Of a stretch of 64,000 nt of DNA, positions 1 to 22,155 are shown piece by piece. The stretch comes from Symbiotaphrina buchneri (Eukaryota; Ascomycota; Symbiotaphrinales; Symbiotaphrinaceae). A model generated the notes under the pieces. The model was not told where the DNA came from and did no database searches. It saw only the letters and a list, made by a program, of their open reading frames with translations. Position 1 is the first letter of the stretch; each line of letters starts with the position of its first letter. Made by a program: the position numbers and the translations under genes. Location: positions 1 through 64,000 of the forward strand of contig BCIG01000025.1 of NCBI GenBank assembly GCA_001599915.1, written 5' to 3'.

Positions 1-103
1 CGGCCACCGCCTTCGCGTCCGGCCCGCCCATTGGCTCCCCGCCGGCGAGGCCGTCGATTCTGCCGCCAAACCCGGACCCCGTCATGCTCCTTCTATGTGT
101 CAC

Positions 104-583
104 GTATACAGCATGCTTCTGACAGCGGCAACTATGACAACGAGGGAAGATTCAATCCACAGCTTTTTGAAAACATGTTCTCGAAGTTCGACGAATCTGG
201 CACGGGGAGCCTTTCACTCCGCGAGCTCTTCAACATGATGAAAGGCCACCGATGCGCGATGGATCCATATGGCGTGAGCTTACCATTCTGATCAAAGCCC
301 GTTTCCCGACTCTAATTATTCCTGTAGTGGTCAGGAGCAGTTTTTGAGTGGGGTACCGTTTGGCTACTCGTGCAAAAGGGCGGCCGTGTATACAAGGAGG
401 ACGTACGCCGCATTTACGATGTAAGAGATGCTAAAAGCCCGCAGTCATTTCTCGAGCTAATGTTTCGTCTGCAAGGGGAGCATCTTTTTCGACATCCGCG
501 AAGCGAGGCTCAACGGAACAGGGTGGAACCAAGGGTTCGGCCTAGGTGGTGACGGTATGTGGGGATCAACAAAGTTATGGTGA
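104..583 (+). CDS. Caleosin family protein, 3' part only
   Basis: This is the C-terminal part of a caleosin, a lipid-droplet or ER-bound calcium- and haem-binding protein with peroxygenase activity in known members. Visible pieces are HASDSGNYD, which carries the second conserved histidine of the family, then FENMFSKFDESGTG and the closing block GSIFFDIREARLNGTGW. Predicted exons run from about 104 to 273, 328-420 and 476-583, with introns 274-327 and 421-475; phases fit. The N-terminal EF hand and proline knot should lie to the left of the window. The first ~85 bases are GC-rich and their reading frame does not join cleanly to the caleosin frame, so the left boundary is uncertain. The gene converges on the caleosin-oxidase gene that ends at 889. 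Confidence 0.8.
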
Positions 584-888: not shown

Positions 889-3848
889 CTACTCCCGTCC
901 AAACCTTTGCTTGCAAACCATTGCATCTAGTTCTTGACGTCCTCTGACGCATTTATAAAGCGCCGTAGGTCCACAATGCTCGTCCTCTTCACAATAACAG
1001 TCATCGTTCGATATGCAACCGGGATATAAAGGGTATCGGCTGCCGTTGATGATATCGTCGAACAGTGCTGGTCTGAAGATTCCCTGGGGATCATGCACCT
1101 CGGCCAAGCCCAGGAAGCGATCAAAGTGCGGGTATTTGTCTTTCACAGGACATTTGGTGTTGAGAAATATACGCTGGGTATTCTTGCCCCAGTGAGGTCT
1201 CGCGCCGTACTTGCAGAAGCTGATATGCTCGATTTCATCAAGCACGCTTTGGTGGTGAGCTGGAAGAGACTGAATGCCCTTCGCAATGAGCATGTCGATG
1301 TAGACCGTGTCTCGACCATATGCCATATCCAGATACGCGTCGGACGCCTTCCCAAAGCGCATAGCGAAGCCCAGCAGGGACGGTAAGCATCCATGAGCCT
1401 CTATTTTATTGGTGAGCGCCCTTACGTCTCGTATCCAGTCGCCGAGGACGGCCACGTCCATGTCCATTTCGACAAGGAGTTGCACTTGATTCCTCCAATA
1501 ACAGCCCCACTGATTGTCCTTGCAACTGGAGCCGCCTAGTCGGTGAGGCCAACCGATCACGCTCTGGTTGAACTCAATCCACAGCCCAGTCGATCCTTCC
1601 TTGTACCAAAATGGCGGAGGATGACGTGCGAAAAGGCAGATGGCCCAATCGGTAGGAATTGGTGTGTAATTGATTTGGTCAATCGCAAGCGACAGCTGTC
1701 CGCCTACTGCGGCCCACGGTCGACTTTCAAAGAAACTATGGTATGCATCTCCCGGCGTGTCTGGTGATACAAAAGTGTGCCAGCGGAATATCGCTGAATG
1801 AGCATTCGGGTACCACATTACCCTCGAAAAGTCAGGCTCCTTGATCATTTCGCCCAGACGTTCAGCAAGTTGATGATCGCCTTCTTTCATAACCTGCGAG
1901 CAGTTAGCAATACCGCGTTAGCTTGCGTATTTGACAGGTCCTGGATAAGCTTCTTACAGTGGTGTTCAGCTTGTAAGAGTCAACAGCGCCTAGCGTTATT
2001 TCTGTCACCACACCTAGCATCCCCATTGATGCTATAAACTGCGTCGGATTTTCTTCTTCCTGAATGTCGCCTCTTCCATCAACGTAGGTTAATCTCCTGA
2101 CTAGATGGCCGAACGCAGACGGGATCTGCACAGAGCTTCCATGTGCACCGGAAAGTAACAACCCGCCAACCGAAAGGCCAGTGTAGATGGGTATATATTG
2201 GAGAGGCACAGCCATTTCATAGTCATGCATAATATCCATGAGATCGTCCAGATGCATGCCTGGTTGAACAGTAATTTTATGGTTCGGGCCGTCTAGAGAT
2301 ATGATTCGGTCCATTCTCGAAAGGTCAAGTTGCACGGCGCATGATTCCGCTTCAACGTCGACACACGGAAAACTGGCGCTACTATGATACATCTGCTTCG
2401 AAGCACGTATGCTGACGGGCTCGCCGTGGCGTGCGCAACGCTGTAAGGTGTCCTTGACGATGCTTGCTACCTGCTTCGTGCTAAGAGGCTGCAGGATTGT
2501 TCCTGAGTGATCAGGACAAGCACGCGGAATCCAGGCGCTTTCAAGGATGTTTTGGCCGATGGGCCGTCGCGAGAGAATTGAAGGCACACCTCGTTCAGTG
2601 ATGGAAAAATAGACGAGCAAAGAGGCTATTAATGTGTACATAGCATATGTCCCTGGGATTATCACAGATCAGAGCCGTCCTGTCATGAGAAAATAACATA
2701 AAGGTGTCTTACATTTTGACCTTTGAGCAGATCTCCAGCCCCCTGTTTTCATGGTTTTTTCACGCATTTTCCAAAAGAACCGACCCTATTTGGTTAGCAG
2801 AGTGTCTTGCTTGATGACGCGTTAGACCCCACTTACGTTGTATATGTCCCTGAGCTCTTCTCTGTATACTCGCCCGTTCTTTTGATTGGCGAACCATGTC
2901 GCCATCCACAAGGGAATAACAACTGCCCACTGTGGTCAAGGTTAGAAAACTCCATGGTACGATGAACAGCAGAAGCGGTGTAAATGGGGTTTGCATCTGC
3001 ATTGATGAACGTACACCATATGGACTTGAGCCTATAGGGTGCTCCCTCATCATGGATAAGAGTCCGAGTAGATCCAGACTGTCTGATTTGGTTGTGTCAA
3101 ACCTGGAGAACATCTCTTCAAAAGGCATCAAAGCAGCGATTTTCCCATAATCTCCGATATGCTCCTCTGTTTCCTGTGTATACATGATCCATGACGTTAG
3201 TATATGCTGTTAGACGCAGGCATAGCGAAACGACAAGACAATAGAGCATCCGTGAAGAAGGCACAATGCTAACCTTGTCTCCTTGAGGATGAGGAACATG
3301 GATTCGAAACAAGGGATCCGGTCTCCATGAATACCTCAGCTGGGTCGGCAAAGAGAGAAGCAAATGTAGCACAATTGATGTGAAGAACGATGCTAATCGG
3401 TGGTACCCAAGGTCGCGAAGTCCAATGTAAGTGTCGCGCGGACTGATGATTCCGTCTGCATTGCGATCCCAGAATCGGAGATGCTGCTGCATTGCGTCCT
3501 GTATGAAAAGCAGAACGATCAGTCACTAAACGGACCATGCACATTATACCAACCGATACAGACCTCACCGTTAGTGTTTCCCTCCTCTACAGACATCTCC
3601 ACTTTGGTATCGTCACTGTCTGTTGAGGCGCTGTTGCTCTCGACGTTGCGTTGATGACGGTCTTCCTCGGGATCCGGTTCAACTTCATTCTCAAGGTCTG
3701 TGGCCAGTGGACGCAGGGAAGTGACTGGACAATGTTGGGCACTGGTTTTGATGCCAGGCTTTTTGTGTCGCACCCTCGGCTCTCCGGGCACTGGCGCAGA
3801 CAGAAGCTCCATTCTCACAGAGGGTCGGACTGCTACTAGATTTTGCAA
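889..3848 (-). CDS. Predicted caleosin - FAD lactone-oxidase fusion protein
   Basis: Seven exons splice in phase: 3848-3564, 3498-3274, 3173-3015, 2929-2837, 2785-2713, 2652-1958 and 1893-889, giving about 844 residues. Residues ~95-270 are a caleosin: HLRFWDRNADG (EF hand with the first haem histidine), a proline-rich knot (LPTQLRYSWRPDP), then FEEMFSRFD and NGRVYREELRDIYN. After a short hydrophobic stretch (MYTLIASLLVYF) comes a PCMH-type FAD-binding domain (GLSVGGLLLSGAHG) and a D-arabinono-1,4-lactone-oxidase-type C-terminus ending near the HWGKN motif. The caleosin frame meets a stop at 2669-2671, three bases before an in-frame ATG of the oxidase at 2665. A 60 bp intron (2712-2653) bypasses that stop and joins the frames exactly, so one bifunctional gene is preferred over two abutting genes. 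The donor at 3563 (GTCTGT) is weak. Start 3848 was chosen over the ATG at 3812, but either is possible. Confidence 0.7.
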
Positions 3849-4507: not shown

Positions 4508-5539
4508 CTACAAGACGTTGTGTAATATACCTGGCTCTATTTGCACCAAGATATCCAATAATTCGTACCATACCCTCCTCTGTGCAATCCTGCCCTGGTT
4601 GCTCGCAACGAAACGCGGTGGCTTCTTGATGGTGCTATCGCTCAAATACTGACCTCGGGACTGCGGGCCAGCAGAAGCGGCGTGCACAAGCGTCCTGCTT
4701 CCCACTTCGCTGGAGCGAGCAAGGAGTCTCTTGATAAGCCGGGCTGGGAGCCCGAGCTCCTGTGTCAAATCTGAATGACAGAGGCCGGGGTTGAGATAAT
4801 TAGCGACTATAACACCATCGCTGCCCTGGCGAGCGGTGAATTCACGGCAGAGTAACGCGACCATCATTTTGCTGATGTTGTAGCGATGCCACATGCGCGC
4901 CGACCTGGGGTCATCAAGCTTCGCGAAGATGTCGGGAGCTTTGCTTTCGGGAAAGTTGGTGTGGAAGATAACCTCGCTGCCGACGAAGACAAGATGGGGT
5001 AAACTGTCGAATCGGCGAGCCGTGTCCTGGAGTTTTGGGAGGAGCAAGAATGCCAATAGGAATGTGCTGATGACGTTGACCGTGATAGTCGCCTCATGGC
5101 CCCCGACAAGGCGGAATTTGGGAGTTGCGATGGCGGCGTTCTCGATTATGGCATCCAGCCTCTCGAGGTCGCGATCGGCGCGTTTTGCAAACTCCTTCAC
5201 TGATTCATAGGAACCCAGGTCTAGTTGCCACACTTCGACGACGTCGGGCCGCATTGTGCTAGTTTCGATGCTTTCCTTTGCGGACTCTCCTCTCTCGAGG
5301 CTGCGTACTGCAAGAATTACCTTGTGCGCTCCCAGCCGAACAAAGTGCCGTGCTGCTTCCTTGCCAAGACCCCCATTTGCCCCGGTGACAATGACCGTCT
5401 TTCCTTCCCAGCTTGCTTCAGGGTAAGCAGGAATGACAAAGAATTGACTGTACAAGAATGATAGGAAGTAATAGAATCCTAAGATCCTGTCGTAGACGAA
5501 AGATAGCAGTGAGCGAATCATTGTCAAGCAAATAGACAA
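4508..5539 (-). CDS. Short-chain dehydrogenase/reductase, membrane-anchored
   Basis: Intronless gene of 343 residues. A hydrophobic N-terminal stretch (about residues 8-38) probably anchors the enzyme in a membrane. The Rossmann dinucleotide motif TGANGGLG lies at residues 52-59, ENAAI takes the place of the NNAG motif, and the catalytic tetrad residues sit in YNISK (near 221-225). Length and motif order match the retinol-dehydrogenase-like or protochlorophyllide-reductase-like classical SDRs of fungi, which oxidise or reduce lipophilic alcohols or ketones with NAD(P). The substrate is unknown. It lies head-to-head with the Zn2Cys6 regulator at 6677, which suggests shared control. Confidence 0.9.
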   Translation of the reverse strand: MSICLTMIRSLLSFVYDRILGFYYFLSFLYSQFFVIPAYPEASWEGKTVIVTGANGGLGKEAARHFVRLGAHKVILAVRSLERGESAKESIETSTMRPDVVEVWQLDLGSYESVKEFAKRADRDLERLDAIIENAAIATPKFRLVGGHEATITVNVISTFLLAFLLLPKLQDTARRFDSLPHLVFVGSEVIFHTNFPESKAPDIFAKLDDPRSARMWHRYNISKMMVALLCREFTARQGSDGVIVANYLNPGLCHSDLTQELGLPARLIKRLLARSSEVGSRTLVHAASAGPQSRGQYLSDSTIKKPPRFVASNQGRIAQRRVWYELLDILVQIEPGILHNVL

Positions 5540-6676
5540 GATAATCGAGATATGGTCAAATTGAACAGAGTAAGGAGGAGTTAGTTTGACTTCCCCGCAG
5601 CCCAGGTTGTTAGAGAATCCAATTGGAGCCGTCTAAACAGGGTGGATGAGCGTGAGCGGCTTGTACCTTTATTGCCGGTAATGGATAAAAAAAAGGATGT
5701 AAAGGAACTGATCCTAGTGCCTCCATAATGTCTACCAATCAACTGAGGTGGTGCTGAACAACGCAGGTTCATACCAAGCATCCGCTGCAGCCGTTGTCGC
5801 TCATTATTGGTGGGGCTATGCAAAAAAAGCGGCGCATGGACTATATGCGGCATTCATATCGGCCCTTTGGAGCGCATGGTCTACGAGTCAGCCTAGGAAG
5901 GAACCTCATGAGTCCTCTCTCCTGGGGTTGTTCCTCGGTCCCTCTCCGCTAGTGCTATTTATTGATAGGTCAGCTCCCCCGACATGAGTCAAAATCGCTT
6001 TTACTTTCGTCAAGCTTTGATAAACGCGGTTAAGCTTTTCGGACAAAACTCCGCATTGAGAACGGAGACTTGTAGAAAGTCGACTAAGCTCACACCCCTG
6101 GTTTCCGGGGCGGAAATCTTACACAAGCTCAATTACATAACTAGAGTATAACGGATGATCCGAACCACTGAGCAAACAGACCGACAAGGTTACGGCTCTG
6201 ATAGCCTGATTCAAACAAGGCCACTGCTTCTTGCACAATAGAGACAAAACCCCCATTTCGCCGCATGCAAAATGCAACGTAGCTTCCCTCGGCCCTCGCG
6301 ACATGGCTCTAAAAAGGACCTGCCCCAATGGAGAAAAGGGGTAGCTTAAGGGTAGCCTACTAGGAATCTGGCCGGTCGGAACGAACGGGCTCACTGAGCG
6401 ACTTTACCTGGGATCGACAGGTACATACATGAATGACGTATAAAACGCGCGTGAAGCATGGGAGGACGCGACAAAGCCATTAGCGAAAGTCACGGATAAC
6501 GCCTCGTGCACATCAGCGCATCGGTGCAGTGTTACGAACGATGATGAAACTCGCACGTAAAGGGGAAATCGCATCTTCAAGAAGTTTATATCTCAGGATG
6601 CTGCTAGTGAATTACCCCGCTGCCAAGGGACAGAAAACAAGGTTCCTATATCGAGCTTTCCACATCCGCCTTATCT
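5540..6676. promoter_or_regulatory. Divergent promoter region, SDR / regulator
   Basis: 1.1 kb between the divergent SDR and Zn2Cys6 regulator genes. No ORF here resembles a protein. It is the natural place for a shared promoter, but no binding site was identified with confidence. Confidence 0.45.
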
Positions 6677-7835
6677 ATGGCTTATCATACCCAACGGCCT
6701 TTGGCACCTTCGCCTTCGGCATCGGATGGCGAACGATTGACTGAATCTACGACGAGCGCTTCTCCCGCGTACGACGACGATCTCTTCAAGTTGCCAAGGG
6801 CAGATGCCAAAAGGTCCTCCATTCCCTCCGAGCGAAAGACCGACACCCGTCCACAACGAGTCAGACGAAAGCGGACTTTACAGGCATGTCTCCGTTGTCG
6901 GTTGAAAAAGACCAAGGTTCGAGGAACTCTCATCTTCGCTGTATTTTTTATATCGGCTACTGATCCAATCATAGTGCGGGGCCCCGCATGGCACTACCGT
7001 TAGGAACTGCTTCCGCTGCTCGCAGGACGGAGTCCCATGTGTCTGGGTCGCAGAGAACGAAGATAGAGAACCCAAGACAACAGCTGAAAAGTACTTCCCC
7101 TAATTCCCTTATGCTGTTGGCTCTTCTTCCGGTCTATGCCGGCAGGCTATCTCCGCACTCAAGACTTACTGGGTATAGGAAGATGTTATTACTGCAGAAT
7201 GAGGTCCGCTTGTTGCAGCAGGGTATCTGTGAACTGTTTACTGAGTTGCAGACTCGTGGTTCACTGGGAGCAACAGATATCGAGCTAGGAGGTCAAGTTC
7301 CGCAAAGCCCGAAGGTCTGCGACATACTAGAGTGGCTGGAGAAGAGAAGAAGCCAGCGACAAAACCGCCAGCTGGGTTGTGGACATTCCAATTCCCTGCA
7401 GGAGTTAGTTGGCTGTGGAGACGTAAGTCAACTCGTTGTTCTACAGACTGCTTCAGAATATGAACTTCAAAGACGGCATGCTAACAAGTGAGATAGCCAG
7501 CCGCAGATACACGTCTTACCCCTGAATCTCTCTCGAGTCCCAATACGGACATGCAATCAATGTTTGGAAGTGCGTGTGACACGGCGTCGACCACAGCCCC
7601 CAGCCCTCCGATCGGACCACTGCCAATCGTGCCTCCGGCTGCTGGAAATTCAATATTCCCTCAGGAGTTGCTCGACATACAGATGATGCTCGATGCGCCT
7701 CCCTATGGAACCACTACCTTCGATACGATGTTGGCTGATACCATATATCCGTTTCTGAACTTCAACAAGCTGGCACCCTCTCAGGTTCCTGTCAATCAAG
7801 CAATTTATGGATGTGACATGGCGGGTACCTTCTAG
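6677..7835 (+). CDS. Zn2Cys6 transcription factor, likely local cluster regulator
   Basis: Four exons in phase: 6677-6916, 6975-7090, 7179-7422 and 7497-7835, about 312 residues. Splicing assembles a complete binuclear zinc cluster across the first intron: CLRCRLKKTKC on exon 1/2, then CFRC and a last cysteine in DGVPC on exon 2. The spacing is C-x2-C-x6-C-x11-C-x2-C-x6-C. The basic stretch RVRRKR precedes it. The rest is short, with no recognisable fungal-specific regulatory middle domain. This is the usual form of AflR-like pathway regulators inside secondary-metabolite clusters. Its place between the SDR and the GMC oxidoreductase supports a cluster-specific role (inference). The chosen ATG follows a divergent promoter, and a later start is possible. 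Confidence 0.85.
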
Positions 7836-8710
7836 TCCCAGTTCTCGATTATGGCATAGTTGGCTGGGCCTGCTTTCCCGGCGTGGAGGGAATAGCTTTC
7901 ATTGCAGCACGAGGGGCGTTCCCGCTCAGTTCAATTCTACCGGAAAGCATGCATGTCCTTTGAGGGACTGCAGTCTATTGTACATTTCTAAAAAGCGGAA
8001 TGAAAGCAATTTTAAAATTTTCTTTTTTCCTTTCCTTTTTTTGAATATTGATCTGACACTATTTTATGTTCCACTGGTAATTTGCAGTATCCGCCCTTCG
8101 ACAGGGACAGGAAAGGCTAGGCGGCTTTGGAGTCCAGAAGGGGCACTCAGAACAGAAACTTGGCAGCAGTGGTTGGAACAAGCCTCTGTGGTGCAGACGC
8201 GTGTCCTAGGCGTCTTGGTCCGTCGGACAAATCGCCCGTGCCAAGAAGCCACCCCTGATTCGACGGACTTGGTCACTGCAAAGCCGAATTCTATCGGCCA
8301 TTTGTGCGATCACCATGGTACTTTCCCGTGTGCAAGACATGTGTACCTTAGGACTACGGGCACCCGCTAATAATGCGCCGAGGTGGCCACCAAGCTCCTT
8401 CCTCAGTGGCTGCAGCCGTGCCTCTATCTACTCCCACTCGTTCCGGCCACGACCCCACTATTTTCCAGACAAGTGATTAATTCCTGGCACGCCCGATGTG
8501 ACGTATGTGAGAGCCATGTTGCACGGGAATCACATGCCAACCACTGTACCCTTGCCGGATCATTTGAAGAACATTCGAGAGGACTTGACAATGTGCCAAC
8601 AACGTTCATTACCTAAGTAAAACAATTCGATTGAATTCAACCAGCATCCCGTGGATTTCCACAAGTCTGCAATAGTAAATTGGCGTGTGTCTCTGTGGCA
8701 TCTTTGCAGG
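7836..8710. other. Intergenic between regulator and GMC gene
   Basis: 875 bp holding the regulator 3' UTR and the GMC promoter. A T-rich tract sits near 8010-8045. Overlapping open frames show no family resemblance. Confidence 0.4.
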
Positions 8711-10891
8711 ATGGGTTCGAGCGTGGAGGAACCTGAAGAGTATGACTTCATCATTCTCGGAGGTTTGTAATCGCGTCTTATATTCCTACGACCTTACCAA
8801 GGGCTCACCTACTGCCATCAGGAGGTGCAGGCGGACTATGTGTCGCTGGCCGCCTAGCTGAAAACCCGCGGGTGTCCGTGCTGGTGATAGAAGCAGGGAA
8901 AGGGTAAGAGCAGCGTCAGCTGACTACGAATCCTCTCGTGTGGGACTTTGGAGCTAACAGAGAATAGCGACCCTATGGCGGAAGAGAACATCAGGACTCC
9001 TGCATCGGCTTTTGACTTGGTAGAAAGCGAATACGACTGGGCTTATGAGACGACGTTGGTGGATAGACCGGACTTCCGCCGAGTAGAGAAGCATTACACG
9101 CGAGGAAAAGTGCTGGGCGGATCCACGGCCCTCAATTATTATAGTTGGATGCGTGGAAGCAAAGGGACATATAACGAGTGGGCGAAGTTTGGCGGCCCAG
9201 AATGGTCGTGGGAGAGCTGCCTCCCTTTCTTCCAAAAGGTGGGTGCTGTCCATCAATTAGGGTGCACGTTTAATACATCAGCAGAGTGCTACGTTTCACA
9301 ACGAAGACAAGTCCGTGCAAATAGCTCCACAGGAAGTGGGGATAGATGGGCCGATAGACGTATCCCCAGCACGAGAGATTCCGCTCACGCAACCATTGAA
9401 GCAGGCCTGGGAAAGCCGGGGTTATAAGTGGAGCAGTGATATCTACAATGGCCAAGTGGAGGGACTTTCTCACGTCGTTGCCTCGAAGTACCAAGGTGTT
9501 CGCACCACAAGCGTGTCATACATCGCAGGGAAGCCGAACGTGTTCGTCAAGTCTGAACATCGCGCTCTGAAAGTGCTCTTTCGAGGGAACAGGGCCATAG
9601 GTGCACTAGTGCGCGGACCGCAGGGTAACAAGACCTACACGGCCAGACATGAGGTAGTAGTCGCAGGCGGAGTATACGGAAGTCCCAAGCTGCTGTTACT
9701 CTCGGGGATCGGTCCTAGTACAGATCTGTTGGCGCATGGTATCGACTGTCTGGTTGACTCGCCACATGTGGGGCAACACTTGCAAGAGCATCCGGTCATG
9801 GCACACACCCTACGTGTGGCGGATGGCCATGGTATGGACCAGTACTTGCGGCCCGGACCGGAGCGCGAAAAGGCTTTGGAAGAATACCGGCGAAACAGAA
9901 CAGGGCCGCTGTGCAGTGGCCTACTGGAGCTGTCGGCATTTGAACGAATCGATGAAAGACTCAAGACATGTTCCGAGTGGAGAGAAGCGGAAAGCAAAGC
10001 TGGCCATGATCCATTGGGTCCTGATGGCCAGCCGCATTTTGAGATTGATTTCATTGTAAGTGTTCCGCAATCGGCAGCGATGTACCACTGACGATTCCTC
10101 TTAGCCGGCATTTGCGAAACCCTTTCACCCTCATATACCAAAGCCGGAAGAGGGAGATTACCTTACTGTGGTGGTAGACCTCGTGCGGCCAACATCAAGA
10201 GGGACTGTCTCACTCCGCTCAAGCGATCCGCTTGATCAACCAGAAATCAATCTCAATCTTCTTCATACTCCGCTTGACTTGGTGGGTCTTCGCGAAGGCG
10301 TCCTCTTCGTCGACGAGATATTGCAAAAGGGGGAGAAGATCAAAGACCTCATCTTCGAGAGCTATCCCGAACCGCTTCCTCGAACTTCCGACGATGAGAT
10401 GAAAGACATGATCCTGAGAAGGGTGTCAACCGGCTATCGTAAGTTACTAGCTCTGCGACCTTAGTTGCGGCACGAGGGTTAAACATAGAGTAGACCCTTG
10501 CGGAACTTGTCGCATGGCATCATCGGTCGAAGAAGGTGTGGTGAATAACCGTCTGAAGGTCTTCGGCGTCGAAGGTCTTCGGTATATCGATGCTTCCGTC
10601 ATACCAGTCATTCCAGACTGCCGCATACAGAGCGCGGTATACATGCTTGCAGAGAAGGTGATGTTGCCCTACTTCACTTTACCGCTTGCAGTTTGCTAAC
10701 TCGACGTACAGGCCTCCCAAATGATCAAAGAAGATTGTCCCGCGCTGTGGGCCAAACAGGGAAACCTCATGCCCAATGGCACGGGACTGACTCTCGTGAA
10801 TTCTTACACGGGGGGATTGTTTAATCGGGCGCAGAATTTGAGCAGTTGGGCTTCTGAGAATGTTGCTTTGCTTAAGAAGGCAATGGCTTAG
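8711..10891 (+). CDS. GMC oxidoreductase (FAD alcohol oxidase/dehydrogenase)
   Basis: Seven exons in phase: 8711-8762, 8822-8903, 8968-9238, 9285-10055, 10105-10438, 10494-10657 and 10712-10891, giving 617 residues, the normal GMC length. The FAD-binding motif reads LGGGAGGLCVAGRL with VLVIEAG after it. The first GMC signature is RGKVLGGSTALNYYSWMRG and the second is GGVYGSPKLLLLSGIGP. HPCGT and the end block IDASVIPVIPDCRIQSAVYMLAEK complete the fold. The family oxidises alcohols (choline, aryl, methanol, long-chain or sugar-like) to aldehydes or ketones. The substrate cannot be read from sequence. No signal peptide is evident, so it is probably intracellular. Confidence 0.93.
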
Positions 10892-11848
10892 CAACGCGAG
10901 AAGAGGCGCAACAACATATTCAACCAACCAGAGCTTTTGTAAAGAACATTGAGACGACGTTGTATCAGAGGTAATCTGAAAAAAAAATATCGAAGAGAGG
11001 AATTGGGAATGTCTCCCTCATGGCCCCTCAATCCCTGTGATTTCAGCGTGATGTTGGATTTTGGACGATTCAAAGCTTAATGTACCGAAAGTAGGGGAGA
11101 ACAACTCATTGTGTACCTAAGAAATGTATTACCCGCAGCAGCTGCCCCTGCGCTCGTGGCTTTTCTTCAACAGTAACCATGGGCGAAGGTTACCGTAGCG
11201 ATAAACACGGCATGGCATTCTCGGACCGTCATTGACCGCGAGCTTAGGAACGGGGGAATATCATTAGAGGCTGATATTAAAGGTTCAATGTAGTGCGGAG
11301 ACGTTTCTACATGACGGATACGGAGGAGATTCCTATTTGCGATTGCCATAAGCCCGCATCGAGAGGAACTCAACCAGACGGCCCACAGTAGCGCATGGCG
11401 CTATTTCTGGATAGGAAGCAAGTTCCCCGCCTGGGATCTTGCTGATTATTCGGTCTTACGGTGTTGTGCACGGGATGACAAAAGCAGTGGGGAGCTCTGC
11501 CCACTTTCTCTGATAGCACGGCCGCTCAGGCGGAGATACTTCCGATAGGCTAGTTCCTCGGCATTCGGCCTTGGCCATTCGTTCCGTTCCCGGTCTGCCG
11601 GGACCGGGCTGTCACTCCTTCGCCCGCTCGGAACGAACTGCCGCTAGGAGAGGACTGCGGCATGCCAAAGTTGAAATGGGTGTCACGTCACTGTCAGTAA
11701 TTGCAGTTGTTTCCGGAACTCGTAACGAGCGTGCGGATCGCGACAAAGCTTGGTACACTTGGCTCGTCTTGCCCATTCTTGCAGGAAAGGAGTAAAGTGC
11801 TGTAGGTGCTGAACTCAAAGACCGGCGACGCCCTCCATCCGTCCATCA
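10892..11848. other. Intergenic between GMC and hydrolase genes
   Basis: 957 bp between two plus-strand genes. It should contain the GMC terminator and the hydrolase promoter. No RNA gene or repeat is recognised. Confidence 0.4.
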
Positions 11849-13327
11849 ATGTCGCAGAGGACAACATCAGCCATGTATTATGCGTCTTGGGCAGTCATCG
11901 CCCTCGATTCGTTTCTCCACCAGTATTTTAAAGCGGTCAGATGGCTCGACACCTTTACCATTCTACGTATCGCCGTAGCGGTCGATATCCTACTTCCTGC
12001 CTACATCGCCATCAAATTTCTGGAATGCTTGCCGTCGGCCTGCTACAATGCTCCACGGCTCCTGTACCGCCGGGGTTGGCAATCCCTCATCCATAAAGCC
12101 GATATGTTTCGGAAAGAGGAGGAAAATATCGCCAGACTCCAGCTAGAAGGGCAATTTAAGTTCCAGGAGCCGGATCTATTCGAGGTCAAGAGATTGACCG
12201 ATATCATGTGGCATGCTGGTTGGGTTCCTCGAACGGAGCACTTCACTGTCTGCGGCGCAAAGGTCAGCGTGGTCCACGAAGTATCGGAAGAGCAGAAAGG
12301 GCCCAGAGAGACGGTGTTGCTCTTGCATGGAAACCCAAGCTGGTCGTATATGTGGAGAAAGGTGGGCAGAGTATTTTTGTAATCATAAAGGGTAGAAGAG
12401 CTGACATGATTTGCTTTGTCTTCTTCTTGAAGGTTATTCCTCGACTGGTTGAACAAGGCTACGACGTCTACGCCCTTGATTGGATTGGACATGGTCTCAG
12501 TGATAAGCCGCGCAAAGCGTCGGCCATTTCATTTGAGTTGCATATGGCGACGCTGCGCGGCTTCTTCGAGCACTTCCAAATACAGGATTGCACAATTGTA
12601 GCTCATGACTGGGGCGGGTAAGTCACCCAAACTCCTTTTACTTGAGAATATCCATTTACGCTTTGGCAGCTGCGTGGCCCTTTGCACCGAGAAGTATCTT
12701 CCACGCAATGCCTGCAAGAAACTTCTCCTTCTCAACTCCTTCTTCCCTGCTCGGCCGACCGACATCGGCATTCGCACCGCTGCTTTATACGCTCTTTGGT
12801 TCCTGGCCACTGGAACCTTCGACGGCTACCTCCCGGAGAGTGCTATCATGCGGTACATGGTCCCATCAATTTCCAGCCCTGAGACCGAGGGCTACTCTGC
12901 GCCTTATGCGGGAAACGTCAAGTCCAAAGCGGGCGTCGGGCGGTTCGCTCATATCGTCCCCGGCATGCCCGACCGGGTCCTCTTCAACCTGCGCACCATG
13001 TCGGTATGGCGCGCCTTCGAAGGGCTCTGCGGGCCAGAGAAGTTCACGAACTTCAATGCTCAAGCTGCACTTGCTACGCTTGACAAAGCAGTCCGGGAGC
13101 ATTGGAGTAGGCTGGCGGACGCTGATGGCCGTCCCAAGGTTATGGTTGTTTTCGGCGATGATGACCCGCTGTTGAAGGATTTCAAGGCCGTCGACGAAAG
13201 CGTAATCAACGAAGACCTTCTAGTCAAAGCCCCCGGAGACGGATGGATTAAAGGTGCGGGACATTATCCAACCGAAGAGAAGCCAGCCGAAGTAGCAGAC
13301 GCGATTTCTCTATTCGTTAAGTTGTGA
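11849..13327 (+). CDS. Haloalkane dehalogenase / epoxide hydrolase-family alpha/beta hydrolase, membrane-anchored
   Basis: Three exons in phase: 11849-12361, 12433-12617 and 12670-13327, about 451 residues. Two hydrophobic N-terminal segments (near residues 10-25 and 37-60) precede the hydrolase domain, which is unusual for the soluble bacterial homologues. The oxyanion-hole strand reads LLLHGNPSWSYMW. The nucleophile elbow is AHDWGG, with aspartate as nucleophile and the halide-type tryptophan beside it. VFGDDDP probably supplies the acid and GAGHYPTEE the catalytic histidine. An aspartate nucleophile means ester-intermediate chemistry, as in haloalkane dehalogenases and epoxide hydrolases. 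The lid (EGYSAPYAGN) is closer to dehalogenase-like proteins. Next to caleosin peroxygenases, an epoxide-opening role is attractive but unproven. Confidence 0.88.
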
Positions 13328-13636
13328 AGGGATTGGACAGGGATCGCAGACTTTGACCAGGGAATTAATGCCATATTTCTGGTTTCTCGCGCCTCTCCTT
13401 GCGCTTGGGACAGATGAGTCAAGGGAGAAAAAAAGAAAAAGCAGCATTTACAGTAGCCTCCGTCATCTGTCAAGCCACTGTATTTTAATATCTATAAGAC
13501 GTACTCAAGCATCGATTAGGCCAATTGAAAGAAAGGTCGTATGTCCCAAAGGAGCTGCTCATAATAGTAACTAGACGAGCCTGTGGCTCTTGGCCCCAGG
13601 AAACTCCACAAAGGGCCAGCCTTCAGGATGAAGGCT
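13328..13636. other. Convergent intergenic spacer
   Basis: 309 bp between the hydrolase (+) and the MFS gene (-). 3' UTRs only; nothing else is seen. Confidence 0.5.
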
Positions 13637-15556
13637 TCACATCGACCGATGATCAGGCTGAAGGCTAGCATAGTATCTGTACCTGTCCGCAGTAGCAACC
13701 CTAGCCTTCCTACCCCATATAATCATCGGCACAGTCAGGAGATGGATACCAAATGCCAGGCATCCGACGCTGACGAACATGTTATATAGGCCCAGAGAGG
13801 CAATCCAGGGGCTGAAGGCGAATTCGATTACCACTGCGAAAGAGTTCCTGACGAATGCCACTGCTACCAGGGCGTCGCCGACGATCTAGTAATAGGGCGG
13901 GGGCGGATTAGCTTTGCAGTAATATGATATCAAGGCGGCCTCGGAGGGATGACTCACATCGCGGTAGCAGTCCGTCAGATATGTCAGGCTAACATCACCA
14001 ACCACAACCCAGCCAAAGCCGAATAACGCGCCTCCGACGGCTAGTGCTATCCACGGTTGTCCCTATTGATGGTTACGCATCAGTATCCAGCCTGCCGGTC
14101 GATATACGCGGGGAGTGACTTACATTGGCCATGCACAAGCCAAAAACAAAGATGCCCACGGGCAAGAGTGTTCCGCAGATCAAAGCCAGCCAAAGCCGCA
14201 TTTCCGGCTCAAAGACGCCACCATTCCTCCTCGCCATCCAGAGGATCCACCAGTCGTTCAGTGGTCCACCGACGATAGAACCTAAGAGGGACCCTACGAA
14301 CGGCGAAAGGTTAAAGAGACCCACACCGATAGAATCAAAGTTGTACGGTGCTGATAGGAGATACGTCGAGTACGCTGTACCGACCACGGAGAACCAAGCC
14401 AAGAGCGCCCCGTACATGATCGCAGTGTACGCCACCGCTGGGAAAGTGAGCATCACGATGAACGGTTGGTAGAAATGGCGCAGGAGCGGAGTCGGGGTTG
14501 GTGTGATGAGGGCTAGACGCTGGCGATAGGACTTCTGTGGGTATGAGACTTGGTCTGTCGGTGACTCAGGGATTGCCCGATTCTCCGAGCTGAGGGCGAC
14601 TTTATCGATATCGGAGCTGGGCTGCAGATTCTCGCTGGGCGGGCTATGCGCAACAGGGCCAGGCTGTGCAGCAGTCCTCGGGACATACTTGCTTTCTTCA
14701 TAGCAGAACATGAGCACGACCAGATTGACGCCGAGGAAGATAACCGTCCACCACCATATCCAGCGCCAGCCCTGGCTAGCCGCCGAGTAGCCGGCGGCGA
14801 CGGGAGCAAGGAAGCTTCCTGCCATGACCATGACGAGATAGATGCCGTTGACGGACGCTCGCTGGTGCGTAAAGAAAAGGTCCGCCACCGTCATCTGCAC
14901 GATTGTCTCACTGATAGCGCCGCCGACGCCCGTCACGGCTGCGGAGGCGATGACTTCCCAGCTCGTGTTCATCTTGGCGCACCAGATTGCCCCGGCGAGC
15001 TGGATGACGGACGAGACGAGGTAGACGGGCCGCCGGCCGTAGCGATGCGCGAATGGGATGATTAGGATGCAGCCGATGGCGAGCCCGGCGCAGTTGGAGG
15101 CCCAGGAATCATCGAGGGCGTCATATGAGACGTTGAGCTCGGTGTTGAGGTCTGTGAATGCTTAGTATTGGGGTCGAGCTTGGCGGGTAGAGTGGGAACT
15201 GACCACCCCAGATTACCGTTCCGATATCAAGCAGGACGAAGGTCATCAGAGAATAGAAGCAGGTAATACCGAAGTTGACGGCCTTTCTGCCTTTGGACCA
15301 GTTCTGCGATGGGATTAGAATATAATCATCACAGCGGGGGGAATGAACTTTTACCAGAGGATCGTTGGGGTCGTCAGTTGGCGGTGGCTGCAAGATGACC
15401 TTATCGGTCGTCCCCCTCACTGTGTCAAAGCCGTCAGTATGTTTGACTTTGGCGAAATAAACCGTGAAAGGATAGCGTACAGTCCTCCAATGCAACAGTT
15501 CCTGGGGGCCAAGGCCCCTGCTCTCCGCTTACGTTCATGGCGTCAATTCCTACCAT
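13637..15556 (-). CDS. MFS transporter, DHA1 / HOL1-like
   Basis: Multi-exon gene. The N-terminus reads PPGTVALED and, after a 61 bp intron, runs into TDDPNDPLNW, the diagnostic start of HOL1-like drug/polyamine carriers. The segment AHRYGRRPVYLVSS holds the conserved loop 2-3 signature. APYNFDSIGVGLFNLSPFVG and MARRNGGVFEPEMRLW are typical of the C-terminal half. The last exons give GQPWIALAVGGALFGFGW and then VRNSFAVVIEFAFSPW. About 12 membrane segments with a polar central loop are expected, located in the plasma membrane or a vesicle. It probably exports the product of the neighbouring enzymes, or imports their substrate. Start 15556 was taken because the in-frame protein begins there with the conserved leader. 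Confidence 0.88.
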
Positions 15557-16461
15557 TGTATTATGAGTTGTTGGCAGTAAACGCGCGCAAAGCCTCACTA
15601 TGCAGCTTCTTGTAATGGGCATGGCTATTATTATTTATCTTTTAGATAAGACGGCAGTCGACTGTTCTTATCAACTCTCGACGCGATTCTGGGATCTGGA
15701 CCGAAAGCTTGATAAGGATCTGAAGACGCGCTGATATACGCGCCCAAACGACGACAATCATTGGCCCACCTCAACCACACTATCAGATCGTTATCTGCGG
15801 GATACGGGCTTGCTGCTAAACCCCTGTTCCTGCTACCCCACTCTCAAAGTTTATGGTTGGTTATCGCTATATCGCAGGATTAGCTTTCGGAGAAGGTCCG
15901 GCAAACTATCTCGAGTGGGTTAAATTCTGTGACCTGCCTTCGTCGCCGTTCAGAGCCTGCACAATCGCAACACGTTATCGCTGAGAATATGCTGACATGG
16001 CGTTGAGCATGCAGTTGGACACTATTCTGCGCCGTGCACGCCTTTGAGAAAAGAAGTGGACAAGCTTATGCGCGGATGCCTCGAAGGGTTACTTGAGCGA
16101 AGTAGGAAAGCAGTCGTTGCGAGCCACAATGCAAGTACAACTTTCCAGATACGCCCTGTAGCTGTTACTATAGCATCCCTTCAACTTCTACCAGCGGCGT
16201 GTCTGTTCGAGAAAAGCATATAGCAGGGGTTTTCCCGACCTATGATTGCATTATTACATGACCATGGAATATGCCGCACTCGCTTGTTCCACATCCTCCT
16301 TCAGTTTCAGCCACGTCAACCATCTCAGTTCCTCTACCTATCCAAGCTCTTGCTCTGAGTTGCTAGAGGGAAGGCATCAGCTTCGGTTGCTTATATGACC
16401 TGGAGCCAGCTGTATCGGCAGTGCTAGTTATATTCCAATCTTCCTACCGCAGGAGCCTGCC
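15557..16461. promoter_or_regulatory. Divergent intergenic, MFS / APH-type gene
   Basis: 905 bp separating two divergent genes. No ORF of note and no recognised motif. It may mark the right edge of the left-hand cluster. Confidence 0.4.
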
Positions 16462-17826
16462 ATGCAGTATGACCATCTTGCCGAAGAACGGTCGAAGATT
16501 ATCCACACCTTTTGGTTGCAATCCTTGCTGAGAAAGCACCCGGAAGAACTCGCCGGATCTCTTGTTGCGCGACACCTAGAAGGGAATTCGGTATCTGCCA
16601 AATGCTTGGGAAATGGAGCCTTCAACGTATGCTATCGAGTCAAGTACGAGGATGGCCAATTGGCAGTGGTTCGTTTCGTTGCCCTAGGGCAAGTCCGATT
16701 CAGGAAAGAGAAAGTCGCGAATGAGGTAGCCGTCATGCGATACCTTGCGAATAAAACGAACATTCCAGTGCCGGAAGTGCTTGGAAGTGGCAAGTGCTGG
16801 GTCGGACCGTACATTGTCATGTCTTATGTTGAAGGTTTCTTGCTCTCCTATGCTCTTAAGGACCCTACCGTATCAAGGCGACCGGTCTTGAACCCGAACG
16901 TCGATATAAACCTTCTCAAGATGGCCTATAGAGCCATGGCGGACGTCCTACTCGAGCTTTCTAGGCCTGGATTTCCCCTCATCGGAGGTCTTTCCAAGGT
17001 GGATTCGGGCGACTTCATTGTCAACCGAAGGCCTCTGACATTCGCAATGAACGATCTTGCAGAGTCAACAAACTTCCCGCTCGAGGACTTCCCGGATCGG
17101 ACCTTCAGCACGGCTAATAAATATTTCAGAAGCCTCGCAGACCAGCATTTGCAGCAGCTCCGTACGCAGCGTAATGATGCAGTCGATGATGAGGCTGATT
17201 GCCAAAAGAAGTATGTCGCTCGGTGCCTGTTTCGCAAGATTGCAGAAGGGATTTCAATTGAGCACAACAACGGTCCGTTCCGGCTCTACTGCGATGACCT
17301 TCGCCCATCGAACGTGCTCATTGATCATGACACACCGAAGATCGCCGGGGTCATCGATTGGGAATGGACATACGCTGCACCTGCTGAATTCAGCTACACG
17401 GCGCCGTGGTGGCTGCTCTTGCAAAGCCCGGAGGACTGGGAATCAGACCTGGACTCATTTCTAGCCCGTTACAAACCCCGCCTGGAGATTTTCTTGCGCG
17501 AGTTGCGACAGCTCGAGGAGCAGAAAATACAGAGCGGATCGTTAGCCGCCGCCGACAGGCTTTCAGACCGAATGGAACAGTCCATGGGGAACGGCTTGTT
17601 CTGGTTCTGTCTTGCCGCAAGACATCCGCAGATGTTCGATGAGATCTACTGCACGTTTCTTGACGAGTTTCATTTTGGCTCTTTCACATCTTTAGAAGAC
17701 AGGGTTGCCTTGCTGACAAAGGAAGAGCGGGCTGAGATGCCGGGATTTGTTCGGATGAAGATGGAGCAGAAGAGGGAGGGCACACTGGGACCTGCACTGG
17801 ATGCTGACACCCTGTTCGATCTCTAA
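16462..17826 (+). CDS. Aminoglycoside phosphotransferase-like (APH/choline kinase fold) protein
   Basis: Intronless, 454 residues. LGNGAFNVCYRVKYEDG is the nucleotide-binding N-lobe, followed by PVPEVLGSGKCWVGPYIVMSYVEG. The catalytic loop reads YCDDLRPSNVLID and the metal-binding motif is VIDWEW. The usual HxDxxxxN appears here as CDDLRPSN, with the catalytic aspartate and asparagine kept and the histidine replaced by cysteine. Proteins of this group are abundant in filamentous fungi and mostly have no known substrate; they phosphorylate small hydroxyl compounds or act as pseudokinases. Nothing in the context fixes a role. Confidence 0.88.
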   Translation: MQYDHLAEERSKIIHTFWLQSLLRKHPEELAGSLVARHLEGNSVSAKCLGNGAFNVCYRVKYEDGQLAVVRFVALGQVRFRKEKVANEVAVMRYLANKTNIPVPEVLGSGKCWVGPYIVMSYVEGFLLSYALKDPTVSRRPVLNPNVDINLLKMAYRAMADVLLELSRPGFPLIGGLSKVDSGDFIVNRRPLTFAMNDLAESTNFPLEDFPDRTFSTANKYFRSLADQHLQQLRTQRNDAVDDEADCQKKYVARCLFRKIAEGISIEHNNGPFRLYCDDLRPSNVLIDHDTPKIAGVIDWEWTYAAPAEFSYTAPWWLLLQSPEDWESDLDSFLARYKPRLEIFLRELRQLEEQKIQSGSLAAADRLSDRMEQSMGNGLFWFCLAARHPQMFDEIYCTFLDEFHFGSFTSLEDRVALLTKEERAEMPGFVRMKMEQKREGTLGPALDADTLFDL

Positions 17827-18281
17827 TTCCCTGCTGGAAGACCAAAGTTTCCTTCACATGCCGTCGGGTTGATAGGTTACTGGCTCCTAATGCGCTGTGG
17901 GCTTGAGGGCTCAAGCCATGAAAGGCTGGGATGCAGCCTTGCGGTTCTGGCCAGAGGCATCGCGTAACCTCTGTGTTAAAAGAAGGCTCTGCTTGTCTGG
18001 AAAAGGAAGGTCGCTATTGATGGCTTACGCCACCACACCGCATAGCAGTGTTATTGTTCAGCCTTGTTTGTGACCTTGTCATAGCCGATGGCATGCAGGA
18101 AAGGATTGGGCCTCCGTTATTTGAATGATGTGCCGCCTCCTGGAAGTGTCTCTCCTCTTCCCCGCTTTCCCATCTACCATTCTCTCCTCGAAGACTTTCT
18201 GACATTCTCCGACACACACGCAGCTCTACCTGTCCAGCGGTAGGGGACCTTCAAAAACCAAACGTCCGAGACGTCCAAACT
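17827..18281. other. Intergenic spacer
   Basis: 455 bp between the APH-type and HET genes. It serves as the HET promoter. Nothing else is seen. Confidence 0.4.
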
Positions 18282-20821
18282 ATGGCGGAAGATTTGACCA
18301 GAGATATGTATGAACCGCTGATTACGGATCGAAGGCGGTCCAGGGCTGAGTCGACCCTCTCCGTCGGAAGCATCGCAGAGCCAAGCAAACCCGACTCGCC
18401 CATTCGCCTTCTTCGACTAGTCCCAGGCGGCCGTACCGATGACCTGATGGGAGAACTCTTCAATCGAACTAATGAAGAATATGAGGCATTATCCTATTTC
18501 TGGGGTGGCAAGGCTCCATCAGCGGAATCGCCGTTTATTCGAATACTGCGCCCTCCAAATCAACCGTCCAAATTGGAAATAACTCCCAACCTAGAAGCAG
18601 CTCTGCGCCACCTTCGCTATGACAATACTTTCAATAAATATCGGAATCTGTGGATCGATGCCATTTGTATCAACCAAAAGGATGAAAAGGAAAAGAGTGA
18701 ACAGATTCCGATCATGGGCCGCATTTATAGTCAGGCTGCCAACGTCTGTGTGTGGTTGGGGACCAGTGATGACACAACTCGGGACGCGCTTGATATGATC
18801 AACAAAATAGTTGACCTAAACGAGTTGGACAAGCTCGTCGACCGCAACTACACCAAGAGATGGGCCGCTCTGTCCCAACTCATGAGACGACCATGGTTTA
18901 GCCGCCGCTGGGCAGTACAGGAGATAGCATTTGCACGCAGCGCCACTGTCCATTGCGGTGGTGAAGACGGGATTGAGTGGGCTGATCTTGCTGACGCAGT
19001 TGCTTTGTTTGGGTCCAGAGCGCGGGAGATATCCAACCTCTTTCGCGGTGACTCGGACTTCAACCACCGTGCAGACTACCTCGGCGATATTGAGGCACTT
19101 GGTGCCAACCGCCTTGTCCAGACTATCAGTAAACTGTTTCGCAAAGCGGATGATGGACGGCGCATGGAGAAGCTGTTGTCGTTGGAGTCGCTCATCTCCA
19201 ATCTATCCGCGTTCGATGCCTCCAGGCCTCACGATATCATTTACGCTGTTCTGTCTCTGGCGAACGATACGATTACCTCCGCGAGGCCAGCAGACAATAA
19301 CCCTTTGAGTCCCATTGACGTACCTCCAATCAATAAGCTAAAGCCCAACGGTCCGTTCTTGAGCAGTCCGATCGAGTCTGAACGTTTCGGACATATGGCA
19401 AGGGACAAGAATAGAGTTCTGCCTGGGACAGATTTTGGTTCGAACGGAGAGAACAATACTGCAATTGTGACCGGCCAACAGACCAACCTCAACTACCTGC
19501 CGTGATCGACTACGAGAACGACTCTTCCGGCCCTGCTGGCGATGTCGAGTCTGCCGAGGCGTCACCCACGAAAGCAATCCATATTGCAGAGCATTCCCGT
19601 TCACACGAGCGTTTAGCTTCCAATACAGTCGCGGGGTTGAGCGGTAGGAGCAGAACTTTGTCGCCCGCCGAGACACGGGAAACCCTAGAGAAAGACCTCG
19701 ACGAGGCGGCTGAAGGACGGCTCCGGGAGCGGGAAATAAAAAGGAATGTGATTGCCGTACTCAGAGAACGACGTGCTAATAAGGTGTTCCACGTGGACTA
19801 CAAGAACAAACCGTTCTTCGAGGTCCGCAAGGACTTTTTAGGCTTCACTATCAAGTCCTCGCGATCGCTTGACATGCTATGTAGACCCTGGGCGCCGGAT
19901 GAGCGGGACCTCCCAGACGAAGACAAACAGTATCTCCCATCCTGGATCCGCCCACTATCGCAGTCGCCTTTTCGGTCGAGGCCCGATGGCAATTTTGGGA
20001 GGGTCAATGCAGATTTGCTGGTAGGAATGCCCGATAGGGGAGGGAAGGTGTACAGCGCCTCTGCCAACACCAAGCCAGAAGTATACCGATTTGGAGGGGA
20101 GAAGACAGGCGAACACAGTCTCTACGTTCATGGCTTCGTGCTGGACAAGATCCAGGAGATGAGGATCCCCGCCGTCGAGGGCAACGTACCAGATGAGTGG
20201 CTTCAGCTCGGCGGCTGGACAAACCTGTCCCAGCCGCCCCCGGAAAGCTTCTGGAGGACACTCGTGGAAGACCGCGACGACAAAGGCCGAAATCCTTTAT
20301 CGTATTATCGCCGCGCTTGCGCGTACGCCTTTACGCAGCGCGTGGCCGGCGGGTCGCTGAACACCGAGAGGCTTATTAGCAACGAGACCAGCAAGATCAT
20401 CACCGACTACCTAAAACGAGTACAAGCTGTTGTCTGGATGCGGAGACTGATCAGGACCGTCAATTCTAAGCAGCTGGGACTTGCCCCCAACAACGCCACG
20501 CACGGCGACTTGATCTGCATTATCCGTGGCTGCAGTGTCCCTGTCGTCCTACGCCCCGAGCCAAAGGATGGAAGATCGGTGTCGGATATGGATATTGGTT
20601 GGCCTGATAGTGGCAAGAAACATTCAAACTCTCTGCCGATTACTGTCGCTGCGAATGAAAACTCGCTCTTCAAGGTGCGAGGGAGCATACCTTGTAAGTT
20701 TATTGGGGAATGCTATATCCATGGCATGATGGATGGTGAATCTTTCAAGTACAAGGAGCAGAATGATATTGTGGAGATGGAATTTGACATGCAATGTGGT
20801 CAAGACACTGTATGTATTTGA
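18282..20821 (+). CDS. HET-domain (heterokaryon incompatibility) protein, frame break in linker
   Basis: The N-terminal half is a HET domain: EEYEALSYFWGG, NLWIDAICINQKDEKEKSEQI, GRIYSQAANVCVWLG and RPWFSRRWAVQEIAFA. The C-terminal half (from about 19502) keeps the usual continuation: FHVDYKNKPFFEV, LDMLCRPWAP and GECYIHGMMDGE. HET proteins trigger cell death or self/non-self reactions after fusion of unlike hyphae. The two halves are in different frames; the first ends at 19505 in the poorly conserved linker. No strong GT-AG pair of the right phase bridges them. Either a weak-donor intron (for example 19376-19431) or a small indel is present, so expression of the full protein is uncertain. 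Confidence 0.8.
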
Positions 20822-20932
20822 CCCTAATAGCCTTGGATAGTGGCCCTGATGTGGAAAGCCTTCATCGTTTCCCTTCTAGTAATCACTATCTCTCTACTTT
20901 GTAGCCAGATCCAGAGTGCGCATTTTGACACC

Positions 20933-22155
20933 TCATTCATAGTACTTGGTCTTCACACCCGCGATAACCTCCTTTTCCTTCTCCAGCTCCTTCTTCGCGG
21001 GATCCAAATTCCCCTTGACCCTCGCCCTCACCCAGTCTCCGGCTTTGATTCCCTTTGCAGGTTCACCTCTATCCTTCAACCCCAACCGCTCCAACAGCGG
21101 GCTATCCACAGTCGTCAAATCCAAGTCATGACGAGGCCTTACGAAATACAGAACCCCTAGGCGATCCAGATGCGCCTGGTCCTCTGGCGGAGCGACGACA
21201 CGGTGCACGCTGCTCTTCAAGACCCCATTCGTCCAGAACTGCAATGCATCGGCGATGTTGACCGTGATGCTGCCGGGCAGCGGCTTGACGTACTTCCACC
21301 CACCATCCGGCTGCAGCACCTGCAGCGCCGCGACAGGCTGGCGGAACAGCAACGTCAGACTGCCGAAGTCCGTGTGCCCGCGCGAGTACAGCTGCTTGTA
21401 GCGCGCGTTCTCCTCGGGCGTGCGCGCGCGGTAGATCATGTACCGCAGGTGGCAGTCCGAGTCATCCTCGTATCGGTGGCCCTCGCTCAGGTAGTCCTCG
21501 GGCAGCTCCAGGATGATGGAGATGAGTGCGAACAGCTTTCGTACGATGTCGTTGTGGATGTGCCGGTGGAACCACTCGATCTCGGTGGCGTTGTCAAGGA
21601 TAATCTCCGGATGGGACCGTGCGAATTGCGGTACGAACTTGAAGATGTTGTACATCTCCACGTTGTCTCGTAGTCCTGGGAATAACTCGATGGATCCTTT
21701 GGGGCGGTACCCGTTGTAGATGCCATGCTCGAGGTCCGCCCGGTACTTGAGCTTCTCGGCCTCGGGCAATTCGAAGAAAGCCTTGCCTATGGCAAATTGC
21801 CGATCGATTTCCTCTTGTGAGAGGCCGAAGTCGGTGATGTAGAAGAAGCCTGGTTGACAGTAATGTTAGAAGACAGTCTACATCCTCAAAGAATAGTATC
21901 GGGGGCACTGACCGACCTGCTGCACAGCGTCTCTCAGCTGTGCAGCCAATTCCTCTTTTCCGCTTGGGGCGTCAAACTTGGAAAGATCGAGGGTGACCAG
22001 CTCAGCCCAGTCAACTGCCACAACGTTAGCAACTGTGGATGGTAGTGTACGGTGTCTAACTGACGTTCTTTGTTTGTCTCAGGCACTTGCTCATACTTGG
22101 GCAACCTAAAAGTGATAGGAGCATTGCTCGCCGTCTCTACTGCTGTCTGCGACAC
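20933..22155 (-). CDS. 2-oxoglutarate/Fe(II)-dependent oxygenase (isopenicillin-N-synthase-like)
   Basis: The exons read KYEQVPETNKE, then (intron ~22075-22026) LDWAELVTLDLSKFD ... VQQVG, then GFFYITDFGLSQEEID into the long 3' exon ending at 20933. The jelly-roll iron site is HTDFGSLTLLF (His and Asp) with the distal histidine in SSVHRVV. The 2-oxoglutarate arginine is in YFVRPRHD. The DIOX_N half is present (GFFYITDFG). These enzymes hydroxylate, desaturate or close rings; in fungi many act in secondary metabolism or on imported organic compounds. The 5' end is unresolved: no in-frame ATG is seen upstream of KYEQVPE, so a small first exon is probably missing from this model. Confidence 0.88.

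Follow-up and report, generated by a model that had tools for sequence, protein, structure and literature searches.

A candidate caleosin–flavin oxidase fusion gene near a contig end of the fungus Symbiotaphrina buchneri

The window analysed here covers the initial 64 kb of the 527-kb contig C25 of Symbiotaphrina buchneri, whose genome assembly amounts to 23.4 Mb in 82 contigs. HET, NDT80 and fungal transcription factor domains, together with the shortness of the introns, fit a fungus and probably a filamentous ascomycete. Close to the start of this contig, seven minus-strand exons spanning 3812-889 join in phase to a single open frame of 832 codons plus stop, and the six introns between them are all GT-AG and leave the phase intact throughout. 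The first in-frame ATG is located at 3812 and none is present at 3848, so that the seven-exon fit of the original prediction stands with exon 1 starting at 3812 instead of 3848. Exon 1 (3564..3812) contributes this ATG and an 83-residue N-terminal extension in open frame and ends at the weak donor GTCTGT at 3563, which intron 1 needs; a donor at 3568 was ruled out because it breaks the frame. Exon 2 (3274..3498) encodes caleosin sequence with His89, an EF-hand, a hydrophobic segment and the proline knot, and the caleosin continues, as judged by frame and Pfam match, through exon 3 (3015..3173), which encodes its middle portion, and exon 4 (2837..2929). Exon 5 (2713..2785), consisting of 24 codons plus one base, encodes its C-terminal end. 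Exon 6 (1958..2652) encodes a hydrophobic junction stretch and the FAD_binding_4 domain and holds an in-frame ATG (2641-2639) that could be the start of a separate oxidase, and exon 7 (889..1893) adds the ALO domain with an HWGK motif, a GULLO2-like cysteine-rich tail and the stop. The coding score of the chosen frame was better than that of the other two frames in 7 of 7 exons, although the values for exons 2 and 5 were slightly below zero (-3.4 and -1.9, respectively).

Whether the locus encodes one chain or two depends on intron 5 (2653..2712, minus strand). This intron is 60 nt long, with donor GTAAGA, a branch-like CTGAT and acceptor CCCAG; its GC content is 42%, and it is non-coding in all three frames. 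The caleosin and oxidase frames share the same register with a single TGA (2671-2669) between them, and removal of the intron takes out this TGA and joins the two frames without a phase error, as originally proposed. With intron 5 retained, the caleosin would be 280 residues long and end at the TGA, and the oxidase ATG would follow after a gap of 27 nt, a distance that had previously been put at 3 bp.

To score introns, we used donor, branch and acceptor tables derived from 40 presumed introns; these came from the window and from 200 kb of contig C1, and the locus itself was excluded. The training introns were picked by consensus patterns and the set contains decoys; at 210-nt open flanks, the intron patterns gave 64 matches compared with 14 and 27 for two decoy patterns. 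Intron 5 scored 15.2, which is above the 30% decile and below the 40% decile of the training introns, and ranked second among the six introns of the gene. Introns 1, 2 and 3 scored 11.2, 11.4 and 12.8, respectively, all below the 10% decile (13.7). As a null, we collected, from the two strands of these 264 kb, all stop codons that were preceded by 99 and followed, in any frame, by 120 open nt, resulting in 4355 comparable stops. Because an in-phase GT-AG intron of some kind could be placed over 3384 of them (78%), the mere existence of such an intron is worthless as evidence. A score at least as high as that of intron 5 was reached at only 32 of the 4355 stops (0.7%), intron 5 itself included; the other 31 contain two entries listed twice and probably include other real introns. 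The runner-up intron at the joining site scored 9.4. Scoring like other introns of this genome, intron 2712-2653 looks real, and we infer from its signals that it is probably spliced in the cell.

Together with the intact phase, the 27-nt gap and the recognisable domains, these splice-signal statistics support a fusion, and we consider it probable from the sequence that the locus is one gene encoding one fused caleosin–oxidase chain. The same frames could instead belong to two genes that are packed closely in tandem and produce separate messages, in which case the good intron would be a coincidence, the 280-residue caleosin would end at TGA 2671-2669 and a 562-residue secreted GULLO-type oxidase would start at 2641. 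We regard this as rather unlikely, because 27 nt is too small for a 3′ end plus a promoter and an in-phase intron this good is met by chance at about 0.7% of stops. For fungal genomes, this would be a very short spacing between independent messages. Yet the hydrophobic residues that follow the oxidase ATG would be suitable as the signal peptide of an independent secreted protein and, like the 16 cysteines and 4 sequons of the oxidase half, match a separate secreted oxidase, and plant GulLO proteins have been reported with a predicted signal peptide (PMC6077269). The unjoined caleosin would, moreover, stop about where the caleosin copy on contig C5 stops.

Since both frames lie in one register with a lone TGA between them, one message could also give two proteins, either as a bicistronic mRNA with intron 5 kept or through retention that toggles between separate and fused products. 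Polycistronic mRNAs were indeed reported from four mushrooms, but the mean inter-ORF distance in one of them, Plicaturopsis, was 364 nt and not 27, and long reads of the ascomycete Neurospora crassa in the same study showed zero polycistronic mRNAs (PMC4503453). Given, in addition, the strong signals of intron 5, this arrangement seems improbable to us. Very improbable, in our estimate, is a fused precursor from which signal peptidase, cleaving at the hydrophobic stretch inside the chain, would release a membrane caleosin and a secreted oxidase: this stretch is situated exactly at the junction and the half behind it is rich in cysteines and sequons, but a cleavage site was not clear on inspection by eye.

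The rest of the genome counts against the favoured single fused chain, because its other caleosins and its ALO are not joined to each other's domain. The surroundings of the caleosins on contigs C8 and C5 (stretches of 8.5 to 9.5 kb) gave zero matches to the oxidase, and the stretch around the ALO gene on contig C1 gave zero matches to the caleosin. Viral contigs searched with the oxidase, the caleosin and the caleosin alignment contained neither the same join nor an encoded relative, which hardly tests fungi, and a search of prokaryote genomes with the caleosin alignment found no encoded relative, which says almost nothing on fungal conservation. Plasmids searched with the oxidase yielded 3 records at 24-34% identity.

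The contig start truncates a second caleosin at 1..583 on the plus strand, which is convergent with the fused gene and not part of the fusion; no oxidase was found behind it. It is 39% identical to the caleosin of the fused gene over 100 residues, and its introns at 274-327 and 421-475 agree in place and phase with two introns of the fused gene. Over its first 80 bases the sequence is rich in GC and the match is poor. A good GTATGT donor occurs at 555 and corresponds in phase, and roughly in position, to intron 5 of the fused gene. Because only poor acceptors follow this donor (best total 11.1, with a branch score of 1.2), we do not use it as a sign of an old intron. The caleosin on contig C8 (L009 3764-4624, plus strand) is intronless, and the neighbouring frames include, as judged by eye, methyltransferase-like and P450-like ones. 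Further along the window, 4511-21865 contains an SDR, a piece of a GMC oxidoreductase, an MFS transporter, an APH-type kinase, a HET protein and a 2OG oxygenase; this part looks like a variable end region of single-copy-looking accessory genes with no obvious pathway.

The N-terminal half of the fused chain is a putative haem peroxygenase-type caleosin. Residues 84-249 match Pfam Caleosin PF05042 with an E-value of 4.8e-36 and 124.7 bits against a cut-off of 27, and a visual alignment with the copies on contigs C8 and C5, in which the C5 row is a rough join, shows the EF-hand, the hydrophobic segment (residues 119-137) and the proline knot. In our assignment of the positions of the two haem histidines of caleosins, the first is retained as His89 and presumably corresponds to histidine 85 of the Aspergillus flavus enzyme. 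Histidine 85 has been reported as essential for the activity of that enzyme (PMC5808235). The motif K/Q-H-G/A-S-D, which would carry the second haem histidine and is kept in the three other copies of the genome, is altered in the fused caleosin; His163 is positioned four residues beyond it and may stand in. An alternative intron 2 after which the exon would resume at 3206 restores the K-H pair but scores 2.7 compared with 11.4 and was rejected, and no better-scoring intron 2 that mends the motif was found at the site.

For the oxidase half, the two domains expected of the originally proposed FAD lactone-oxidase-type enzyme were found above their Pfam cut-offs: FAD_binding_4 at residues 332-464 (6.4e-15, 55.5 bits) and ALO with its best stretch at residues 643-773 (2.1e-21, 77.3 bits), the latter including HWGK, a motif of the HWXK type, at residue 732. 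By its predicted sequence, however, this half resembles plant GULLO proteins more closely than it does fungal aldono-lactone oxidase. The best NCBIfam match was TIGR01677 (pln_FAD_oxido) with 9.6e-52 and 176.2 bits against a curated cut-off of 383.1, followed at a clear distance by the sugar 1,4-lactone oxidase TIGR01678 (1.6e-27, 96.5 bits, curated cut-off 396.8) and galactonolactone dehydrogenase (1.2e-9, under its curated cut-off), and the cysteine-rich tail at residues 789-826 matched GULLO2-like_3rd (PF22906) with 6.1e-6 and 26.3 bits against a cut-off of 27. Because the matches to TIGR01677 and PF22906 are below the curated cut-offs, we call the oxidase GULLO-like and do not file it as a member of these families. 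In a PDB alignment whose register is fixed by an A113G chain, the gatekeeper Pro421 is placed opposite Ala113 of galactonolactone dehydrogenase. This alanine is reported to hinder oxygen, and the corresponding residue is glycine in fungal ALO and in animal GULO (PMC11099136). Elsewhere, oxidases are listed with either proline or glycine at the gatekeeper, Arabidopsis GULLO5 with its proline gatekeeper is reported to have zero oxidase activity, and a GULLO activity of the mushroom Grifola formed hydrogen peroxide (PMC11505616); for a nectar GulLO, weak oxidase activity without flavin was described (PMC6077269). The same genome encodes an ordinary separate ALO on contig C1 (PF04030, 8.1e-83), which has glycine at the gatekeeper.

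The cysteines are distributed unevenly along the chain, with one in the first 263 residues and 16 in the oxidase half, which also has the 4 sequons. Between them, the junction hydrophobic stretch at residues 267-285 has a mean hydropathy of 1.28 over 19 residues and is preceded by a basic stretch. The topology that we infer as most likely is of type II: the caleosin hairpin and the junction stretch would hold the chain at the surface of the ER or of a lipid droplet, the caleosin would face the cytosol, and the cysteine-rich oxidase would lie in the lumen or outside. In this way the two redox enzymes would gain a common membrane address and a common dose from being fused, and not a passage of H2O2 from site to site.

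The original prediction had suggested that FAD-derived hydrogen peroxide is coupled to haem peroxygenation within the chain. We consider this doubtful because the oxidase has secretory marks and would face the caleosin from across the membrane, because a plant GULLO that shares the gatekeeper proline has been reported not to act as an oxidase (PMC11505616), and because the second haem-histidine motif is altered. With the two halves on opposite sides, direct hand-over of H2O2 would be unlikely, although H2O2 can cross membranes. The reported data on rice PXG9 add to the doubt, since hydrogen peroxide was a less efficient oxygen donor than cumene hydroperoxide, which exceeded it 5-fold and 11-fold in kcat/Km with two hydroxy fatty acids (PMC12295067). 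PXG9 nevertheless accepted hydrogen peroxide with hydroxy fatty acids and, in favour of coupling, gave higher relative product yields with it than with cumene hydroperoxide; neither donor was effective with the free fatty acids tested (PMC12295067). A self-supplied peroxygenase at the lipid droplet or ER, in which the flavin half turns a sugar lactone over to H2O2 and the caleosin oxygenates hydroxy fatty acids, perhaps with retention of intron 5 as a switch, appears unlikely to us.

Most likely, the pairing is better accounted for by a common location on the lipid droplet or ER membrane than by H2O2 coupling. In the alga Chromochloris zofingiensis, three caleosins and a GULO were reported among the most abundant lipid-droplet proteins, and this GULO also targets droplets in yeast (PMC6818385). 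The same GULO reaches droplets without a long hydrophobic segment or tether, which counts against the explanation that we prefer (PMC6818385). A real fusion would link a caleosin of a fungus to a lactone oxidase of the secretory type, provide a genetic parallel to the algal GULO-type enzyme on lipid droplets beside caleosins (PMC6818385), and offer a test case for the coupling of redox enzymes on two faces of one membrane.

The combination of caleosin and oxidase is a new one of known domains and not a new kind of system. In a survey of 344 fungal caleosins, the architecture is described as conserved, and its main text does not contain the terms "fused", "fusion", "FAD" or "chimer". Among the papers listed on caleosin with gulonolactone or lactone oxidase and on related subjects, titles, starts of abstracts and passages likewise yielded no such fusion.

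Dual oxidases (DUOX) and engineered oxidase-peroxygenase pairs join an H2O2-making flavin enzyme to a haem enzyme. The candidate described here would follow the same idea with unrelated domains if its halves share a compartment and the flavin half acts as an oxidase. With the fungal caleosin/peroxygenases (PF05042; Aspergillus flavus AfPXG) it has the Pfam domain, EF-hand, hydrophobic segment, proline knot and first histidine in common, but it adds a flavin oxidase of about 560 residues, and its second histidine motif is altered relative to the other three copies. Fungal D-arabinono-1,4-lactone oxidase shares the FAD_binding_4 and ALO domains, whereas the candidate has proline instead of glycine at the gatekeeper and a poorer match to TIGR01678. 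Plant GULLO proteins (TIGR01677; PF22906) resemble it in the HWGK motif, the cysteine-rich tail and the gatekeeper proline as reported for GULLO5 (PMC11505616), but the candidate is fungal, would be fused to a caleosin and remains below the curated cut-offs. In Chromochloris, proteins of both types, caleosins and a GULO, occur together on the lipid droplet, but there they are encoded by separate genes (PMC6818385).
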